This document shows positions 9,521 to 23,831 of a stretch of 64,000 nucleotides of DNA, piece by piece. The DNA lies in assembly GCA_003223215.1 (NCBI GenBank), contig QHYH01000137.1, forward strand, positions 36,959-100,958. The letters are read 5' to 3'. A program made the translations under genes and the position numbers. This DNA comes from Acidobacteriota bacterium. Its GTDB lineage: Bacteria > Acidobacteriota > Terriglobia > Acidiferrales > UBA7541. How positions within the stretch are numbered: position 1 is the first letter of the stretch; the number at the start of each line of letters is the position of its first letter. The notes under the pieces were generated by a model. The model saw only the letters and a program-made list of their open reading frames with translations, ran no database searches and had not been told where the DNA came from.

Positions 9521-9997
9521 ATGCGAACAATGAACAGCGTCCTCCTCGTAGAAGACTTCGGGCCCTTCCGCGCGTTCGTGTCAACTTTGCTTCGGGAAAA
9601 GCCAGACGTCCAAGTCGTAAGTGAAGCCTCAGATGGGTTAGAGGCAGTTCGTCGCGCAAGAGAATTGCATCCCGATCTGATCCTCATGGACATTGGCCTG
9701 CCTGGACTGAACGGAATCGAGGCGGCACGCCGGATTCGAGAGCTAGCCCCCAGATCCAGAATCGTCTTCCTCACCCAGGAAGGCTCCTCCGAGGTAGTGG
9801 AAGAGGCGCTCAGCTCAGGTGCGCTAGGCTACTTCCACAAACCACGAGCTGCAAACGATCTATTCCCGGCCGTCGCCGCAGTCCTTGAAGGCAAACAATT
9901 TGTCAGTAACGGATTGATTGGCTCAAAAGAACCGATGATCACACTGCGCGCCCGAAATCACCGGCCATGCCTTCAGGAAACGCCGTGTCTCAGGTAG
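9521..9997 (+). CDS. single-domain response regulator (REC only)
   Basis: VLLVEDFGPFRAFVSTLLREKPDVQVVSEASDGLEAVRRARELHPDLILMDIGLPGLNGIEAARRIR; no output domain. Confidence 0.85.
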   Translation: MRTMNSVLLVEDFGPFRAFVSTLLREKPDVQVVSEASDGLEAVRRARELHPDLILMDIGLPGLNGIEAARRIRELAPRSRIVFLTQEGSSEVVEEALSSGALGYFHKPRAANDLFPAVAAVLEGKQFVSNGLIGSKEPMITLRARNHRPCLQETPCLR

Positions 9998-12900
9998 TCC
10001 CGGGGTGCGCGGCCCTAGCGCCAAGGTTCAGCGGAACAGTGGCGCGAATTACGGTGCCGCGCCCCGGTTGGGCATCTATGAAAAGTTGTCCATGGACCAG
10101 TTTCAGACGTTCCTTCATGCTAGTGAGGCCCAAGCCGCTGCCCGTAATTGCTTGTTCGGGGTCAAAGCCAACTCCCGAATCGCGCACCGTCAGCTTAACC
10201 TCATCCGGTGCACCGTTGAGGCAAACCTCGAAGTGCCGCGACGCGCTATGCTTAACGGCGTTCTGGAGCCCTTCCTGCAAGACGCGAAACAGGCAAAGCG
10301 CGATCTCCGGAGGCAGCTTCCTCGAGATCTGATCGGTGTGAACCTGAATCTCTACTCCGTGCTCCGCGGATAGCTCTTTACAGAAACTCGCGGTTGCTGC
10401 CGCGATGCCCAGGTATTCCAGCTTTGAGGAGTGCAGGTGATGCGACAAGGCTTGCACGTCGCTCCCGAGACCTGAAAGAAGTTCACGTATCTCTTCGAGG
10501 CGTTGACTGGTTGCCGCAGCTGCCAGAGAAGAAAAGTCCTTTTGTAAGCGCTCCAGATTAACCGTGACCAAAGCAATTCGCTGATTGATGTCGTCATGAA
10601 GCTCTCGGGCGATCCACGCGCGCTCCTCTTCCTGGGCTTGGATCAATCTACGGCTGATGTTCGAAAGAGACTCTTGCGCCAGTTTGCGATCGGTGACGTC
10701 GATGCACGAACCGATGTATCCGGAAAAGGAATTATCCGGGTCAAATCTCGGCACTCCTCGATCAAAAATCCATCGATACTCACCATCATGTCGCCGGAGG
10801 CGATACTCCACCTCGAAAGGTTCGCGTCTCTCGAACGCACTTGCATAGGTTTGCATGCAATGTTGCAAATCCTCGGGGTGCACGCCCCCCGCCCACCCGT
10901 CTCCCAGTTCTGAGTGCAGTGGGCGGCCGGTGAAATTCAGCCAGGACTGATTGAAATAGGTGCAGAGCTTTCTCGGGCCGGACATCCAGATCATGACCGG
11001 AGCAGCGTTGGCGACATGGCGAAAGCGCTCTTCGCTTTCGCGCAAAGCGGCTTCGGCCTGCTGCCGCTCAGTGACATCCACAAGCACGGTAGTCGAATAC
11101 CGGAGGTTTCCGTCGGCGTCTTTCACTGATCCCGCATTGAGGAGCACGGTTCGCTTTTGCCCTTCTTTCGTGACTATGATCATCTCCTCGTCGTGCAGTG
11201 TTTCTGTTCTCTGCCACTTTTCAAGCAAATCAACCATGTTAGTGACGGACCCAAGAGCATAAATCGTGGACAAAGATTTCCCTATCAGTTCTTCTCTTAG
11301 GTAACCGAGAGCCTTGCAGGCTGCGGGATTGGCGTCCAAGATTTCGCCATCCGCCGAAGTCATAAAGCAGTATTCCGGCAAGGTGTCAAAAAACTGCCGG
11401 AATCGATGCTCGGAAGCTCGCTCCGCGTCTTCAGCCTGGTTAAGATCGGTCACATCCGAGAAGACAGAAAGGACACAAGGCTCACCGTTGCAACCGATTA
11501 TCTCCGAGGACCCCAAGGTTGTTCGGATCTGACCGTCTTTCCTGCGAACCCGAACCTCGACATTTCGGGCCGCGCCTTCAGCCAGAAGACGCTTCACGAA
11601 TTCCTTTCTTTGAACAGGATCGACCCAGAGGCTAATGTCCAAGGGACTTCGGCCAATCACTTCGTCGTGGCGCCACCCGGTCAGGTGCTCGTACGTTTCG
11701 TTGACTTCGACATAGCGATGATCCTGCAGCCTCGTAATGGCGATGGCTAGGGGGCTTTGATGAAAGACACTCGAAAACTTCCGCTCCGAGTTCTCGAGCG
11801 CCTCTTCCGCCCGTTTGCGCTCGGTGATATCAACCGCCATGCCGACCATACGCTTGGGCTCGCGGTTCCTCGCGTCTTCCAGCGTACCTCTTGAGACAAT
11901 CCAACGGACCGTGCCGTCAGGCCAAAGAATCCGGAACTCCTGAGCAAAGGGCTTGTGAGCTTGCCTCGCTTCCGCCACGGCGTCCGAGATTCGCTTCCGA
12001 TCAGCAGGGTACACATACCTATAGAACTCCTCGATGTCCCCGGCGAAGGTTTCGGACTTGATCCCAAACATCGTAGGTAAATCGCCAAACCAAGCCACCC
12101 GACTGGTCTTGACATCTAGGTCCCAGCCAACCGTTTTGCCATGCTCCATGGCCAAACGAAGCTGCTCGTTCGAACGAACCAGCTCCGCCTCGGTCTTTCT
12201 TCTCTTGGCTCGTTGCCTGAGAAGCGCGAAAATAATCAGGGCCTGAGCGAAAACAAGTATGACACTGGCGACAATGTATCGTCTGTAGATTTCCCAGAAG
12301 CTGAGCTCTCGATGGAGCACGACGCTACCGGGCGGCAGGTCGCTAACTTTCATCCCCCAGCGCTTTAGGGCTCGCCAATCAAACATGTAGGCGTGGTTGC
12401 TAACCACGACGGGAATATCCTCGGGCTTCTCGCCGTTGAGGACCCGCACAGCCATCTCTGCGGCGGCATGACCATCGTCGGCCCAATTCACCAGGTCGCC
12501 GCCCACAGTTCCTGCCCTAAGATCCACATCGTCCATGACAAAAACCGGGGCATTCGCCGCTGCGGCCACTAAGGGCACCGATTGAGCCGAATCAATAAAT
12601 CGTTCTCCCGCGGCATCTTGTGAGATTGCAGTGTGATAGACAATCGTATTGCTTGGCAGATGCCCAAGGCGCTCAAGCAGGACAGGCATCGTCAAGCCCG
12701 TAAGATACGTGAAATCAAGCTTCGATTCGTAGTTTTGGAAAGCCTGTTTTGCTACGCCTTCCCACGTTTCGTCGAACTTGCCCGCGCCACCCACGACCAC
12801 GACGTGCTTTGTTCCAGGCAACAAGTGCAGCGCAGCATTCAAAGTCTCCGCCGGGTGTAGCCTGCCCAAAACACCCGTGTAGTGCCTGCCGGAATTTAGC

Positions 12901-13406
12901 TGGCTCGGAATTTCCCCTAAAACTATGCAGAAAATGATCGGCGTATGTCTGATGAAGCTTTCTTGCGACTCGGCGATGAACTTGAGGGATGCCGATCCGG
13001 CCGCAATAATCACGTCGGGCTTGCGATCTGAATACTTTTGTATAAGCGACTCGCGAAACAGGCGCTGGGAAGCTTCGTCTGGAAAATACGTCAGTTGCAG
13101 ACTCTCTTGATACAACTCAATCTGGTAAGCCGAATTCCGTAGACCGCTCAAGATTGCTTGATCCACTTCCGAGAAACCAGGTGATGAGACGGTCCCAAGA
13201 TCATTGACAATCAGTACTCTCCGGCTCTGCTTGAGCTGCGCTCCCAGGCTCGAGACGAACAAGAGGCAGCCGAGCAGCATCAGCAGCATGGGTGCCCATG
13301 GCCAACATCCCTCAGGTTGCGTGCTCGATCGCCCGCGGCTCTGGCCAACCCGCCAGGTCCTTGGCTTTAGCGACTGACCCCTCCGGCAAAAGAAGCGTGC
13401 GGTCAT
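9990..13406 (-). CDS. hybrid sensor: ABC-type substrate-binding-like N-terminus, TM, four PAS domains, HisKA_3/HATPase
   Basis: N-terminal VLIVNDLGTVSSPGFSEVDQ...DVIIAAGSASLKF...; TM SVILVFAQALIIFALL; repeated PAS/PAC (VGMAVDITERKRAEEAL etc.); QEEERAWIARELHDDINQRIAL dimerisation box; DSGVGFDPEQAITGSGLGLTSMKERL ATPase. Confidence 0.93.
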   Translation of the reverse strand: MTARFFCRRGQSLKPRTWRVGQSRGRSSTQPEGCWPWAPMLLMLLGCLLFVSSLGAQLKQSRRVLIVNDLGTVSSPGFSEVDQAILSGLRNSAYQIELYQESLQLTYFPDEASQRLFRESLIQKYSDRKPDVIIAAGSASLKFIAESQESFIRHTPIIFCIVLGEIPSQLNSGRHYTGVLGRLHPAETLNAALHLLPGTKHVVVVGGAGKFDETWEGVAKQAFQNYESKLDFTYLTGLTMPVLLERLGHLPSNTIVYHTAISQDAAGERFIDSAQSVPLVAAAANAPVFVMDDVDLRAGTVGGDLVNWADDGHAAAEMAVRVLNGEKPEDIPVVVSNHAYMFDWRALKRWGMKVSDLPPGSVVLHRELSFWEIYRRYIVASVILVFAQALIIFALLRQRAKRRKTEAELVRSNEQLRLAMEHGKTVGWDLDVKTSRVAWFGDLPTMFGIKSETFAGDIEEFYRYVYPADRKRISDAVAEARQAHKPFAQEFRILWPDGTVRWIVSRGTLEDARNREPKRMVGMAVDITERKRAEEALENSERKFSSVFHQSPLAIAITRLQDHRYVEVNETYEHLTGWRHDEVIGRSPLDISLWVDPVQRKEFVKRLLAEGAARNVEVRVRRKDGQIRTTLGSSEIIGCNGEPCVLSVFSDVTDLNQAEDAERASEHRFRQFFDTLPEYCFMTSADGEILDANPAACKALGYLREELIGKSLSTIYALGSVTNMVDLLEKWQRTETLHDEEMIIVTKEGQKRTVLLNAGSVKDADGNLRYSTTVLVDVTERQQAEAALRESEERFRHVANAAPVMIWMSGPRKLCTYFNQSWLNFTGRPLHSELGDGWAGGVHPEDLQHCMQTYASAFERREPFEVEYRLRRHDGEYRWIFDRGVPRFDPDNSFSGYIGSCIDVTDRKLAQESLSNISRRLIQAQEEERAWIARELHDDINQRIALVTVNLERLQKDFSSLAAAATSQRLEEIRELLSGLGSDVQALSHHLHSSKLEYLGIAAATASFCKELSAEHGVEIQVHTDQISRKLPPEIALCLFRVLQEGLQNAVKHSASRHFEVCLNGAPDEVKLTVRDSGVGFDPEQAITGSGLGLTSMKERLKLVHGQLFIDAQPGRGTVIRATVPLNLGARAAHPGTT

Positions 13407-17280: not shown

Positions 17281-17850
17281 CTACTTTTTCACTTCTGGCG
17301 GATACTTTTTAAGAAGTTTCGCGACGGCTTTGGTGATGTTCTTCTGTTTCTTCTCCGGCTTGGCTTTGGGATCTAATGTTTTCGTTGCCACCCCCCTCCA
17401 AACCAGCTGTTTTGCCGCAGGGTCGTACATGCTCACATCTAGCTGTCCAACATAAACCGTGGACGTTGAACCATAGGTCGTCGTGGAGGACATTCCACCA
17501 CCATACCCATACCATCCTCCTCCCCAACCAGGACCGTAGCCCCAACCCGTGTTATACGAGGTGTACTCTTTCTCCTGACCAAGGGCAGTTTGATAGCCGA
17601 CCAACACATCGGCGTTGTCCGAGTCCGTTTTCGTCATTCCTTTGGCAGCGAGCTCAGTGTCAATAGCGCTCGTTAACGCCTTTTGAGTGAGCTCATCGGG
17701 CAGGTCAGCGCCCTTGATGGGCACCCACTTGTAAGTTTTATATTTCGAAAAGTCCTTATCCTTGTCAAAGTCGTAGCGAACATCCTGGGCAACAGCCGGG
17801 GTTACGCTCGACAAGAACAGAGCAACCGTTAGAAGTGTTAACTTTTTCAT
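17281..17850 (-). CDS. DUF4136-domain secreted protein
   Basis: Start at internal ATG 17850 with AAGGAGAAGGAGC upstream; signal peptide MKKLTLLTVALFLSSVTPAVAQ; VRYDFDKDKDFSKYKTYKWVP. Confidence 0.88.
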   Translation of the reverse strand: MKKLTLLTVALFLSSVTPAVAQDVRYDFDKDKDFSKYKTYKWVPIKGADLPDELTQKALTSAIDTELAAKGMTKTDSDNADVLVGYQTALGQEKEYTSYNTGWGYGPGWGGGWYGYGGGMSSTTTYGSTSTVYVGQLDVSMYDPAAKQLVWRGVATKTLDPKAKPEKKQKNITKAVAKLLKKYPPEVKK

Positions 17851-17863
17851 GCTCCTTCTCCTT

Positions 17864-17897
17864 ATGAGAGATGTTACGAAATGAGAGATGTTACGAA
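17864..17897. repeat. perfect tandem duplication of ATGAGAGATGTTACGAA (2 x 17 bp)
   Basis: Read directly, immediately upstream of the DUF4136 ribosome-binding site. Confidence 0.9.
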
Positions 17898-17933
17898 TCT
17901 CTTCTGTTTTGCCTACATACGGCGGGTAGCGCG

Positions 17934-18935
17934 TCACCAGTTGTCGCGGGTGGCGTGCCAGGTTTTGCCCGGGTCGTAGAGTTCCATATTCTTGAATAGG
18001 TTGAGAGTGTCCGGGCCCAGATCCTTCTCATAGACAATCCCCTCGTAGCTGACGATGAAGGTCTTCACTCCCGTTACGCGGTAGTCGGCCGGCGCGGCCG
18101 CTAGAGCAAAGCCTCCAATCATCGCGCCATTCACCACAAAGTCCATTCGGCCTAACGGCGCCGAGGGGCCCTGCCCTTTCAAAATCTTGAAATAGTAGCC
18201 GTGATAAGGATTGGCTTTGCTCGTGTAACCTTCCTCGAGCGCTTTGCCAACTTCCTCTCCAATGGGTCCACCTAAACTTCCATCTGCGTTTCGCCAAACC
18301 AGACCGTCCTGTTTTCCGGGAGAACTGATGATCCGCTGCGCGTACTGGTTCACCTCGCTACCATCATGCTTTTCGAGAGCGTAATCGTGTTGCGCTTCCA
18401 CGTAGCCGCGGCAGATCTGGATGGCATCCAGTTCGTTGGAGCCGATGCGCCGCAAAAGGATTTCCTCGCGGCCTTCATTGGTGTCGAAAAGCCACTTTCC
18501 GTTTCGCTTGACGATAGGAATGGGCAGCGGCCAATCGTCATTGCCAACCGAAACGGTGGCCCGTTTGGAATCTTGAGGGTCCGCACTAACCTCGGTCTTC
18601 TCGCGGGCCTTCGCCGCAAATGCGGCAGCCCTGTTTTTGTCTTGAACGGGGTCTTCTGACGACACCAGATCCTCGCCGTCTGCGCCGAGAATCTCTTTCA
18701 GAGCAGGCACGTCAAAGTTTCCGGCCGCCTGGATGAGAGCATCGGCAGCTTCTCTCGGCGTCGCGAACTGCTTTTGGGACGGCTGCGAGGATGGGGCCGG
18801 AGATTGTTTCGCTTGTGGCCGCGCTGCCGAAGGCGAAACCAGGAGGCCATAAGAGGCCGTGGCCATCATGGTGAGAAGCATGGCCCACGCGGTGCTTTTT
18901 GAACTTGGTCCGATCATGGGATTCCCTCCGCTCAT
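17934..18935 (-). CDS. DUF2950-family protein
   Basis: FATPREAADALIQAAGNFDVPALKEILGADGEDLVSSEDPVQDKNRAAAFAAKAREK; LVWRNADGSLGGPIGEEVG; YHGYYFKILKGQGPSAPLGRMDFVVNGAMIGGFALAAAPADY. Confidence 0.9.
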   Translation of the reverse strand: MSGGNPMIGPSSKSTAWAMLLTMMATASYGLLVSPSAARPQAKQSPAPSSQPSQKQFATPREAADALIQAAGNFDVPALKEILGADGEDLVSSEDPVQDKNRAAAFAAKAREKTEVSADPQDSKRATVSVGNDDWPLPIPIVKRNGKWLFDTNEGREEILLRRIGSNELDAIQICRGYVEAQHDYALEKHDGSEVNQYAQRIISSPGKQDGLVWRNADGSLGGPIGEEVGKALEEGYTSKANPYHGYYFKILKGQGPSAPLGRMDFVVNGAMIGGFALAAAPADYRVTGVKTFIVSYEGIVYEKDLGPDTLNLFKNMELYDPGKTWHATRDNW

Positions 18936-18942
18936 GGCTTCC

Positions 18943-20211
18943 TTACCTCCTCCTCCCGCCGCCTCCCCGACCGCCGCCGCCACCCATGCTGGACGAGCCG
19001 CGTGAGCTGCTGGCACGCGCGCTACTTCCGCTCGTCCCCCCAGAACCGCCACCAAAACCGCCTCCCCGCGTGCTAGCTCCGGAGCTTGGGGATACGCTTC
19101 GGTTGCCTACGCGATCGCCGCCCCCACCGGCTCGGTTTGCTCCCGAGCTGCTCGCGCCGCCCGTCGCGCGGTTGCCAGCACCAGGCTGCTGCCCGCCGCC
19201 CCGCTGCCCCCCGCCCCCCTGCCCTTGATTCTGGCGTGCGTTTGCCTGGCGGCTGCTCATGGAATCTCCTCGCGCCGTACCGCCGTACTTGTTTGCAGTG
19301 GCCTTGTTCGAGTAGGGGGTCCCGCCGCGGTGCTGCGAATTGTGTTGCCAGCTGTTGTTTCCGGTTCTATTGCCGCTCGTATTTGAAATGTTGTTCTGCC
19401 GATTGGAATTATTCACGAACGTGTTGTTGTTATTGATGTTGATGTTGTTGTTGCTTCCCCAACCGCTGTTACAGCACCAGCCGCCACCACCCCAAGCTGC
19501 TCCAATGGCCATCCCTACGCCGAACGAAATCGCCATGCCGGCGGCATAGTAGCCCGGAGGGGGATAAGCGACGGGTGGGTAGGGGTACACAGGAGGCCCG
19601 TACACTACCGTGGGGTTGTAGCTCGGAACGTAAACTACTTCGGGGTTGGATTGCTGTATTACAACGACGCTCTTGTTCTCGATAACCTGGGTTTCCACCT
19701 TCATCTGCTCGTTAGACTTGAGATTGCCAGTGTCCTTTGCTTTAGCACGCATGCGCTGCACGGCGTCCATCACGTCAGATTGCTGGGCAAGGACTGCATT
19801 CCCTAGGTCCGTCGTCCACTGAATGTCGTCCGCCAGTCGCTTGACCACATCAGGAAGTGCGGCCATCGCTTGAACGCTGGGGTCCCAGTTTTGCTTCATC
19901 ACCGCGTCGGTGAGCCCTTTATCCTTCAGGTCCTTGTGTTTAGCCAAAAACTGCTGGAGCTGCATGATTTCCAAAGGATAGGTTGATGCAGCAAGCACTT
20001 GAGCCAGAAGCTCGTCGGGGTAAAGGGCGATAGGCGCAACCAAAGAATCCAATTGATCATTTGGAATCTTGGGAGGCTGCGCGTCGGGGGCACTACTTTG
20101 CTGTGTGAGTATGTTCGGCGACGCAATCGTTTGGGGCGCTCCAAGAACTAAAAGTATGGAGCACACTACTGCCGTCCACTGCCTCCACAAGCTCCGGATG
20201 AGAGTTGGCAT
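18943..20211 (-). CDS. DUF3300-family secreted protein with Asn-rich and Gly/Ser/Arg-rich C-terminus
   Basis: LDSLVAPIALYPDELLAQVLAASTYPLEIMQLQQFL; VIQQSNPEVVYVPSYNPTVVYGP. Start at ATG 20211. Confidence 0.92.
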   Translation of the reverse strand: MPTLIRSLWRQWTAVVCSILLVLGAPQTIASPNILTQQSSAPDAQPPKIPNDQLDSLVAPIALYPDELLAQVLAASTYPLEIMQLQQFLAKHKDLKDKGLTDAVMKQNWDPSVQAMAALPDVVKRLADDIQWTTDLGNAVLAQQSDVMDAVQRMRAKAKDTGNLKSNEQMKVETQVIENKSVVVIQQSNPEVVYVPSYNPTVVYGPPVYPYPPVAYPPPGYYAAGMAISFGVGMAIGAAWGGGGWCCNSGWGSNNNININNNNTFVNNSNRQNNISNTSGNRTGNNSWQHNSQHRGGTPYSNKATANKYGGTARGDSMSSRQANARQNQGQGGGGQRGGGQQPGAGNRATGGASSSGANRAGGGGDRVGNRSVSPSSGASTRGGGFGGGSGGTSGSSARASSSRGSSSMGGGGGRGGGGRRR

Positions 20212-20270
20212 TTCGTCACCTTGATTTACTTGCTTTTGGAGTTTTATTACCAACCGTACCTATCGGAATA

Positions 20271-20317: not shown

Positions 20318-20333
20318 CTGTAACTTTTGACAG
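20318..20333 (+). promoter_or_regulatory. dyad CTGTAA-CTTT-TGACAG; TAACGT at N23
   Basis: Upstream of the sortase operon. Confidence 0.65.
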
Positions 20334-20441
20334 TTTGCGACAGACAAAACATCTCCTAACGTACGAGTCGCAAAAACAGCCAGGCGTAACCCATGCCCAG
20401 CTCTCTGGCTGAATACTCGACTCACGCCCGAGAAGAAGAAA

Positions 20442-20672
20442 ATGAAGGAAACAAGCGATAGCACGCGGCCGGGCTGGATTTTCGCGCTGATGGTCGTCAC
20501 TCTAGGAGCAACATTTCTTGAAGTAGTGATCAACTGGGCCCTAGCTCCAATGAACGGGAATTGGCTCCTGATGGCAGCAAAAGCGTGCACCTATAGCGTT
20601 TATTTGCCGTTTGTTGGCGGTCGGCACGAGTTTTGTGAGGTATCGTTAAGGAATGACGGGAAAAGGCCGTGA
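20442..20672 (+). CDS. small membrane protein preceding sortase (uncertain)
   Basis: 76 aa, hydrophobic FALMVVTLGATFLEVVINWALAP; stop overlaps sortase GTG by 4 nt. Confidence 0.45.
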   Translation: MKETSDSTRPGWIFALMVVTLGATFLEVVINWALAPMNGNWLLMAAKACTYSVYLPFVGGRHEFCEVSLRNDGKRP

Positions 20673-21388
20673 AGTTTCAAAAAATCGAGCTCGTTCTTTT
20701 AGCTGTAGGCCTGTTACTCCTGGCCGTGTGGGGTGGTGCTCGCTTTCACGGCGCCGTCAGCGCCAAAACAGCAATTGCCGAATTTGAAGCCGCACGGGCA
20801 GAGAATCTCGCCGACAGTACGTCCCCATCGCTGGACCGTACACTGAGTTCGCCGGTTGATTTTCGCCTATGGTCGCCCAAGCGGATCGCTGCGTACAAGG
20901 TCAGCCTCGCCGAGAAGACCGATCTCCCTCTGGCCATTCTGCGTATTCCCAAGATCAACCTCGAAGTGCCGGTCTTCAACGATACCGATGACCTTACCCT
21001 GGATCGGGGGGTGGGCCGGATTCTCGGAACAGCCCGCGTCGGCGAGCCGGGCAACCTGGGAATCGCAGGGCATCGAGATGGCTTTTTCCGCGGTCTGCAG
21101 AGCATTGCCCAAGGCGATGTCGTTGAGCTGGTTCAGCCGCGGCACACAGACAAGTACGTTGTAGAAGATATTCGTATTGTTGCGCCGGAAGACACTTCCG
21201 TTCTGAATCCAAAAGAAGTACCGGCGGTGACGCTGGTCACCTGCTTCCCTTTCTATTTTGTTGGCCATGCCCCAAAGCGGTACATCGTGACGGCACTCCT
21301 TGAGAGCGCCCGCGAATCAGGCTTCGGTGCCGACAAGGACACCATTTCCACGGGTAAGAACATCACAGACAAGGAGAATAAGAAATGA
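20669..21388 (+). CDS. class D-like sortase
   Basis: N-terminal membrane anchor; LAILRIPKINLEVPVFNDTDDLTLDRGVGRILGTARVGEPGNLGIAGHRDGFFRGL; catalytic TLVTCFPF; downstream Arg (KRYIVTA). Confidence 0.92.
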   Translation: MKFQKIELVLLAVGLLLLAVWGGARFHGAVSAKTAIAEFEAARAENLADSTSPSLDRTLSSPVDFRLWSPKRIAAYKVSLAEKTDLPLAILRIPKINLEVPVFNDTDDLTLDRGVGRILGTARVGEPGNLGIAGHRDGFFRGLQSIAQGDVVELVQPRHTDKYVVEDIRIVAPEDTSVLNPKEVPAVTLVTCFPFYFVGHAPKRYIVTALLESARESGFGADKDTISTGKNITDKENKK

Positions 21389-22188
21389 TTTCAACCAGGT
21401 TATCAGAAACGATCTGGCGCGGCTTGCTGAGTGGAGGCGCTCTTTGCCTTGCCTTCTCTCTGCCATCCGCAGCACAAGTACAAAGTTCGAAGACGGAGTC
21501 CCACGGCGCAGCAACCAGACAGGTCAAAGTCGAGCGGGGAGAAATTGTCTACATCAACGGGAACAGTGTGATCGTCAAGATGGAAGACGGCAAACTCGAA
21601 CACTTTGATAACGTCCCGGATAGCCTCACGTTCATGGTCGACGGAAAATCCGTCAGCATACGCGACGCAAAAGTGGGGATGAAGCTTGAAAAACAAACGG
21701 TCACGACAACGACACCAAAAGTGGTCACAACCGTCGAAAACGTTACGGGCAAGGTATGGCACGTAACTCCGCCCAACACGGTCGTTCTGACTCTTGAGAA
21801 CGGTGAAAATCAGCAATTCAAGATTCCCCAAGGCCAGAAATTCATGATTGACGGACGAGAAACCGATGCTTGGGGCCTCAAGAAGGGCATGAAGGTCTCA
21901 GCCCAGAGGGTGACTGAGGTTCCAGAAACGGTCGTGGCGCAGGAAATCAAGAGAACCGGAACTGCCCCACCACCGCCGCCAGCACCGAGTCCTGACGTAC
22001 CAGTTTTGGTTGTCGTCACTCAACCGGTTCCGGTTCAAACTGCAGCTGCCGAACCCGAGCCGGCGCCTACCAAGCTTCCCAAGACAGCTAGCGATTTGCC
22101 GCTTGTCGCACTGCTTGGAACGCTTTTCTGCGGTCTTTCTTTGATGGCCATGACCATTCGGGTGATCTTTTCACGCATCGCCCGTTAG
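21385..22188 (+). CDS. LPKTA-tailed surface protein, candidate sortase substrate
   Basis: Signal peptide; two beta-repeat units (GEIVYINGNSVIVKMEDGK.., GKVWHVTPPNTVVLTLENGE..); Pro-rich linker; C-terminal KLPKTASDLPLVALLGTLFCGLSLMAMTIRVIFSRIAR (LPxTA, TM, basic tail). Confidence 0.85.
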   Translation: MISTRLSETIWRGLLSGGALCLAFSLPSAAQVQSSKTESHGAATRQVKVERGEIVYINGNSVIVKMEDGKLEHFDNVPDSLTFMVDGKSVSIRDAKVGMKLEKQTVTTTTPKVVTTVENVTGKVWHVTPPNTVVLTLENGENQQFKIPQGQKFMIDGRETDAWGLKKGMKVSAQRVTEVPETVVAQEIKRTGTAPPPPPAPSPDVPVLVVVTQPVPVQTAAAEPEPAPTKLPKTASDLPLVALLGTLFCGLSLMAMTIRVIFSRIAR

Positions 22189-23192: not shown

Positions 23193-23831
23193 TCATCCCA
23201 CGACAATACGGCTCTTGATGGCATACTGGATGAGATCTGCGCTCGTCTTAAAGCCAAGATCCTGCATGACGCGGTATTTGTGAAAGGCTACCGTCCGCGG
23301 TGCTACGTTCAAAACAGTCGCCGCCTCTTTCATGGATTTGCCCTCTGCCAAGAGCTGTACAACTTCTCGTTGACGCGCAGTTAGGGATCTGGGGTGGCTC
23401 TTGCCCTGGGGATTGCGAATGAAGGACTCCTGCATTCCCCGAGCAATCTGGGGTGTTATGTAAGACTTGCCTCGAAGTGCCGCCTGCATGGCTTGGAGCA
23501 ATTCTGATGCCGCCGATTTCTTCAACACGTACCCGGACGCACCCGATTTCATGCCTTCGACAGCAAGTTCGGGGTCTTCGTTCATCGTCAGAAAAACAAG
23601 TTTGACGGCTGGCATTTTCTGCTTGAGTTGCCGGCAAGCTTCCAACCCATTCAGCAGAGGCATGGCAACGTCAACAACAATCACATCGGGCTTTAGGGCC
23701 AAGGCAGAAGCCAGCAGGGCATGTCCGTCAGCTACTGTCGCCACAACGTCGAACTGGGCTGCGATCAACCCGTGCAATGCCTCCGCTACCAGGGTGTGAT
23801 CGTCAGCTAGGATCGCGCGAGGCAGTCTCAT
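23193..23831 (-). CDS. NarL/FixJ-family response regulator (212 aa)
   Basis: REC AILADDHTLVAEAL...; HTH SLTARQREVVQLLAEGKSMKEAATVLNVAPRTVAFHKYRVMQDLG. Confidence 0.93.
   Translation of the reverse strand: MRLPRAILADDHTLVAEALHGLIAAQFDVVATVADGHALLASALALKPDVIVVDVAMPLLNGLEACRQLKQKMPAVKLVFLTMNEDPELAVEGMKSGASGYVLKKSAASELLQAMQAALRGKSYITPQIARGMQESFIRNPQGKSHPRSLTARQREVVQLLAEGKSMKEAATVLNVAPRTVAFHKYRVMQDLGFKTSADLIQYAIKSRIVVG

Follow-up and report, generated by a model that had tools for sequence, protein, structure and literature searches.

The window analysed here, a stretch of 64,000 nucleotides of DNA from a soil bacterium of the Acidobacteriota, carries two overlapping genes that encode a sortase and its apparent substrate (coordinates refer to the window and to its + strand, unless otherwise indicated). 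The first gene (20669–21388), which starts with a GTG codon, encodes a protein of 239 residues made of an N-terminal transmembrane (TM) helix and a class D-like catalytic domain. This protein scored 89.2 bits against Pfam PF04203 (Sortase, peptidase C60; cut-off 26.6), which places it within the superfamily, and its best sequence match in the PDB was 2ln7 (B. anthracis SrtD/SrtC, E 5e-20). Its AlphaFold2 model (mean pLDDT 88) consists of a long N-terminal helix and a sortase barrel and, when searched with Foldseek, all 50 matches listed were sortases. The catalytic residues His135 (in GHRDG, 21071–21073), Cys192 (in TLVTCFPF, 21242–21244) and Arg204 (21278–21280) were invariant in 71 homologues. 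Family match, triad and fold therefore confirmed the sortase that a preliminary description of this DNA had recognized by its GHRDG and TLVTCFPF motifs.

Directly N-terminal to the catalytic domain, the homologue alignment revealed a clade-specific juxtamembrane motif, D64-x3-W68-S-x2-R72 (20858–20884), with W68 present in 68, R72 in 69 and D64 in 56 of the 71 homologues. Neither the DUF2911-type nor the GN-type acidobacterial sortases described below showed this motif. In class C sortases the corresponding region bears a regulatory lid, and the sortase profile aligned to the class C pilus sortases 8t28 and 8gr6, N-terminal region included. By analogy, a gating role for this motif is thus a fair guess.

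The second gene (21385–22188) overlaps the first by 4 nt (ATGA), as verified by a check of the coordinates, and encodes an exported protein of 267 residues, with homologous substrates in 48 loci according to neighbourhood clustering. It begins with a Sec signal peptide (21385–21474) that lacks a lipobox Cys and is likely cleaved after Ala30; A30 and Q31 are at least 90% conserved among the substrates, and the signal helix spans residues 3–24 in the AlphaFold2 model. The same model (mean pLDDT 85) also displays two tandem small β modules (residues ~34–193, 21484–21963, in pLDDT blocks of ~87–97) and a C-terminal TM helix, while a low-confidence stretch corresponds to a Pro/Ala-rich linker of 37 residues (~194–230, 21964–22074). 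The length of this linker ranges from 25 to 56 residues in orthologues (29% Pro, 26% Ala), and a Pro/Ala-rich spacer ahead of the sorting motif is kept in 45 out of 45 substrates. The overlap with the gene of a 267-residue secreted protein, as well as the two internal β-repeats and the Pro-rich linker, had all been anticipated in the preliminary description, and both the model and the sequence agree with it. The Pfam search yielded no family over its cut-off for the window substrate, and the comparison of its fold with PDB structures gave no match at E<0.001, the weak ones being OB/TOBE/eIF5A-like. As no convincing sequence match was found either, the assignment of a known fold was rejected.

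The C-terminal region of the substrate (EPAPTKLPKTASDLPLVALLGTLFCGLSLMAMTIRVIFSRIAR) contains the motif LPKTA (22075–22089; family consensus LPxT[A/G]S in the orthologue alignment), followed by a TM helix and a basic tail (22096–22185; helix 238–266 in the model, P-L-x-G-L-L-G conserved). It therefore gathers the elements of an LPXTG-type sorting signal, namely LPxT[G/A], a hydrophobic segment and a basic C-terminal tail. The alignment of 45 orthologous substrates showed no variation at the L and P of the motif and a conservation of 90% or higher at T, S, P239, L240 and G242, so the initial reading of LPKTAS, TM helix and basic tail as a sorting signal held. In contrast, its description as a signal of LPxTA type proved too narrow: LPKTGS (18/45) is about as common among the orthologues as LPKTAS (16/45), and strict LPxTA specificity was rejected in favor of LPxT(A/G)S as the correct description. 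At E<=0.1, Pfam PF00746 matched 18 of the 45 members of the substrate family, and the window substrate itself was unmatched.

The preliminary description had considered the enzyme class D-like, and class D is indeed the nearest class. The class D models were the best of NCBIfam for the window sortase and also ranked first by E-value across the 71 homologues. However, the curated class D cut-offs were not reached: the window sortase scored 112.5 bits with NF033746 (cut-off 165) and 124.2 bits with NF058671, the SrtD model specific for LPxTATN (cut-off 140), a threshold narrowly attained by a clade member from Gammaproteobacteria (141.3). NF058670, the model for the LPxTATN signal, did not match the window substrate, whose tail reads LPKTASDLPL. 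The class C pilus model gave 76.9 bits (cut-off 160) and the class GN model, TIGR03784, gave 74.3 (cut-off 158.25). Membership in class GN was rejected by this score and also by the tree, in which the clade of the window sortase is distinct from the DUF2911-type and GN-type enzymes (support 100/99). Judging from these comparisons, the window sortase is best regarded as an enzyme working like those of class D, not as a certified member of the class.

The association between enzyme and substrate was evaluated across loci and genomes. Eighty loci encoding sortase relatives were fetched (two of them identical to contigs G004 and G006), of which 66 had an ORF with a sorting signal (LPxT(A/G), TM helix and basic tail) within ~0.75 kb of the sortase. 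In a separate count, such an ORF was located at 1 kb or less from the sortase in 53 of 63 loci, whereas among other ORFs the count was 0 of 302. These figures argue that the pair is not due to chance. They also provide, together with the 45 aligned substrates, a positive outcome for the check proposed in the preliminary description, that is, the conservation of LPKTA and the tail beside orthologous sortases. No neighbouring sorting-signal ORF was found in 14 of the 80 loci, in part because the substrate was cut by the contig end (L059, L075 and L102) or because these were Holophagae loci with L,D-transpeptidases.

At the genome level, 149 genomes of the phylum, at least 90% complete, were scanned for both the sortase and the sorting tail. 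Counting as a tail any match that extended to the C-terminus of the profile, a definition adopted after the search, it was present in 25 of the 28 genomes with a sortase match (the other 3 having a sortase without tail) and in none of the 121 without it (Fisher p 2e-25, uncorrected for phylogeny). In the genome from which the window derives (8.8 Mb, 97.65% complete), the scan with TIGR01167 missed the window substrate and was uninformative, and for this reason a custom tail profile was built. It retrieved one protein with an E of 1e-15, the next match being at 0.28, in keeping with the notion of a single dedicated substrate. The sortase profile, in turn, detected in this genome one intact enzyme and a second sortase-like piece, LVTCFPFNYVGAAPRRFIVRAL (C211:40620-40763, locus L051), corresponding to an 89-codon open frame that carries TCFPF. 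A second functional sortase was rejected, as the frame holds no sortase ORF started by ATG, GTG or TTG, and the piece is probably the pseudogene remnant of a decayed second sortase.

In the tree, the window sortase falls inside an Acidobacteriota group (support 100/96 to 100/98). The members of its clade are mostly Acidobacteriota, with the addition of a Gemmatimonadales MAG, a Myxococcaceae MAG and, with moderate support, a gammaproteobacterial group (Lysobacterales, Xanthomonadales, Chromatiales and Oceanospirillales). The taxon labels of single MAGs may be wrong, and cultured strains are safer in this regard: the pair is carried by Edaphobacter modestus, E. aggregans, Granulicella sp. L46 and Acidobacterium sp. 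S8. The gammaproteobacterial loci of the same sortase clade (L087, L095, L105, L108, L112, L118, L120, L126 and L127) have as neighbours exported proteins of ~200 residues with PEPEPEP-type linkers and LPxT(A/G)[S/T/G] tails, whose domain is unlike the acidobacterial one. In clade members from Holophagae/Thermoanaerobaculales (L101:5686-7151, L116:606-3186 and L121:3444-5950), the sortase is followed at close distance, in one operon, by YkuD and/or YkuD_2 L,D-transpeptidases, and LPxT(A/G)S proteins with a homologous two-repeat core are encoded elsewhere in the same genomes (L154–L156).

Within the same genus, the window sortase type was found in only 3 of 25 genomes. Other genomes of the genus combine a class D-like sortase and a DUF2911-like partner, or have a sortase of GHRTSWF type, the latter observed in L042, L043, L045, L048 and L049. 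The L043 enzyme exceeds the cut-off of class GN (166.7 against 158.25 bits) and belongs to a separate clade at 100/100. Class GN has been stated to be confined to halotolerant proteobacteria (PMC10581121), a restriction with which the L043 score is not compatible. In L033–L047 (for instance, L047:7677-8492 and L038:7676-8404, both on the − strand), a class D-like sortase lies within ~1.5 kb of the DUF2911-like protein, which is exported and ends in LPxT(A/G)S, a TM helix and a basic tail. The conserved GQEFVYPK of this protein resembles the pilin motif VYPK, a likeness that is probably a coincidence.

The cell envelope of the host is relevant to what the pair may do. The genome encodes LptD, and the window contains an Oar-type barrel, an OEP channel and an OmpA-domain protein. 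On this basis the organism is a diderm, as the non-Gram-positive context noted in the preliminary description already indicated. Braun's lipoprotein (Lpp) was not detected in this genome, E. coli being the only one of 14 controls with a match. Its MurE carries DNPR, the signature of MurE enzymes that add meso-DAP. The amine of meso-DAP is the group used by Bacillus sortases.

All these observations could be integrated in a model that we consider reasonably probable: the two genes would form a dedicated sortase–substrate pair of the diderm periplasm, in which the substrate is joined to the meso-DAP of peptidoglycan. In this model, the substrate would leave the cytoplasm through Sec and stay in the inner membrane by means of its C-terminal TM helix and basic tail, and the sortase, attached to the membrane through the helix at its N-terminus, would have its active site in the periplasm. 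Cys192 would attack LPKT|A, forming a thioester with the Thr of the substrate, and the acyl-enzyme would then transfer the substrate to an amine, which is most likely that of the meso-DAP side chain, within either a peptidoglycan stem or lipid II. The product would be a two-module β protein attached to the wall through a flexible Pro-rich spacer and oriented towards the periplasm or the outer membrane. It is very likely that the window sortase cleaves its partner, and the pair probably serves to anchor proteins within the two-membrane envelope. The identity of the acceptor as meso-DAP is likely, by analogy with class D precedent, from the chemistry of DAP and from the neighbours found in one sub-branch; the L,D-transpeptidase neighbours of Holophagae/Thermoanaerobaculales provide an independent pointer to peptidoglycan. 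As a precedent, the class D sortase of B. anthracis cleaves LPNTA (PMC3208642). Against the model, class D enzymes are also able to link proteins to pilus subunits, as reported for B. cereus SrtD (cited in PMC3617157), the curated class D cut-offs were not reached, 3 genomes of the phylum had a sortase match without a tail and 14 of the 80 loci lacked a neighbouring sorting-signal ORF. It is possible that the substrate acts as a tether or spacer between wall and outer membrane, a role that fits the flexible linker and the failure to detect Lpp in this genome. A broader notion, that a widespread diderm sortase pathway (in Acidobacteriota, some Gammaproteobacteria and perhaps Gemmatimonadota) fixes one periplasmic β-repeat protein by its C-terminus to peptidoglycan DAP, and that this protein tethers or spaces peptidoglycan and outer membrane where Braun's lipoprotein is lacking, is tentative and, at present, rather doubtful.

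A peptidoglycan-bound product would stay beneath the outer membrane, and a role at the cell surface would therefore need another acceptor. The substrate might be passed to a lipid, glycolipid or exopolysaccharide and end on the surface, as in PorU/type IX sorting or in the manner proposed for PEP-CTERM systems, and C-terminal sorting of such a kind is known in diderms (PMC5445135, PMC11980579, PMC1569441). This explanation is unlikely, given that the C60 domain and canonical triad mark the enzyme as a true sortase, that no glycolipid, T9SS or EPS family is prominent among the largest neighbour clusters and that the enzymes recurring as neighbours in one sub-branch are the peptidoglycan L,D-transpeptidases.

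The same co-operonic transpeptidases count against the idea that the sortase is mainly a protease, with water or a small amine taking the acyl group and the β protein being freed into the periplasm. Sortases hydrolyse their substrates slowly in vitro, and the window operon encodes no acceptor. However, the preservation of the Pro/Ala spacer in every aligned substrate is what would be expected of an attached protein, and this possibility is quite unlikely. A third option, a pilus-type (class C-like) polymerase linking substrate molecules through a lysine, draws on the alignment of the profile to 8t28 and 8gr6 and on the position of D-x3-W-S-x2-R where class C enzymes have their lid. Against it, the highest conservation of any Lys in the substrate core is 76% (45 substrates), when the acceptor Lys of a pilin should be near invariant, only one substrate exists in the genome and the scores with the class D models clearly exceed that with class C. 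The absence of a conserved Lys and the single substrate thus make polymerisation highly improbable. Finally, sortases are rare outside monoderms, but the notion of a misassembled or contaminating Gram-positive fragment is refuted by the flanks that the window shares on both sides with locus L052, by the position of the sortase in the tree and by the cultured Edaphobacter, Granulicella and Acidobacterium strains that carry the pair.

Periplasmic anchoring to peptidoglycan, the reading that we favor, can be compared with several known systems. The closest by sequence is class D of Bacillaceae (B. anthracis SrtC/SrtD with BasH/BasI, NF058671 plus NF058670, and B. cellulosilyticus), which shares an LPxTA-type motif and sortase genes that are often adjacent to the postulated substrate (PMC3617157). 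The Bacillaceae signal continues T-N, whereas that of the window continues S-x-P-L, with A and G interchangeable; the Bacillaceae substrates are carbohydrases and those of the window clade are small β-repeat proteins. The diderm host and the additional W68/R72 motif further set the window system apart. Class GN ("marine", TIGR03784), whose role was described as unknown in 2023 (PMC10581121), likewise occurs in Gram-negative hosts, but the window sortase belongs to another clade. The DUF2911-type acidobacterial system shares with the window pair the LPxT[AG]S-x-PL tail and the logic of neighbouring genes, although with another substrate family and another sortase sub-clade, devoid of W68/R72. 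Braun lipoprotein and outer membrane proteins anchored by L,D-transpeptidases are covalently bound to meso-DAP in diderms (PMC8263019). The likeness lies in a protein placed on the meso-DAP of peptidoglycan, by a covalent link shown for Lpp and presumed for the window substrate; the differences are the enzyme (a sortase), the expected attachment through a C-terminal Thr in place of L,D-transpeptidase chemistry, and a substrate that is not a lipoprotein.

Earlier counts already include sortases of Acidobacteriota ("Sortase 6" in Solibacter usitatus, PMC3174227). In the open-access literature searched, no account of the acidobacterial pair, the diderm clade or the substrate family was found, and within that literature both clade and family appear to be undescribed. 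The sortase process is known almost only from Gram-positives, and the pair recurs across Acidobacteriota and some Gammaproteobacteria. It frames the role of a Gram-negative sortase cleanly, with a single enzyme and a single substrate encoded side by side, a sorting signal that is conserved and hosts available in culture, and its interest resides in that the function of sortases in two-membrane cells becomes directly testable. If the product were bound to peptidoglycan, sortases would represent a second chemical route, beside L,D-transpeptidases, for the covalent attachment of proteins to the wall of diderms, and the LPxTG logic would extend beyond surface display. On the practical side, the motif and the family profile allow the annotation of substrates that TIGR01167 missed.

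As for the surroundings of the pair, an upstream ORF of 76 residues (20442–20672), an uncertain gene with which the interval given in the preliminary description begins, has a stop codon that overlaps the start of the sortase gene (GTGA). It had no Pfam match, its sole NCBIfam match was sub-threshold (12 bits) and a tblastn search against the other loci found none. A short ORF with the same GTGA overlap occupies a similar position in L052, the nearest relative (from an Acidobacteria gp2 MAG), in which the flanking genes on both sides are those of the window. Lacking any homologue beyond this positional counterpart, the ORF was not counted in the system. Genes for DUF4136, DUF2950 and DUF3300 proteins (17281–20253, − strand) are divergent from the sortase operon, and DUF3300 recurs near 7 other sortase loci. 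Between the DUF3300 gene and the operon there is a non-coding 18-mer, TTTTGACAGTTTGCGACA (20325–20342), for which chance would predict 0.10 matches in the window when up to 3 mismatches are allowed. The 15-mer core of this element recurs unchanged in L052 only, where the surrounding DNA is ~68% identical, and the element is possibly a promoter or operator. Plasmid carriage was rejected, with no match in PLSDB. Downstream, and convergent with the pair, lies a gene for a LuxR/NarL-type response regulator (23193–23831, − strand), homologues of which are found beside 12 other loci, typically ~1–1.8 kb away. Kinases of ABC_sub_bind-PAS-HisKA_3 architecture, such as that at 9990–13406 in the window, also recur near other loci, and the pair may possibly be regulated by the neighbouring LuxR/NarL regulator or by these kinases.
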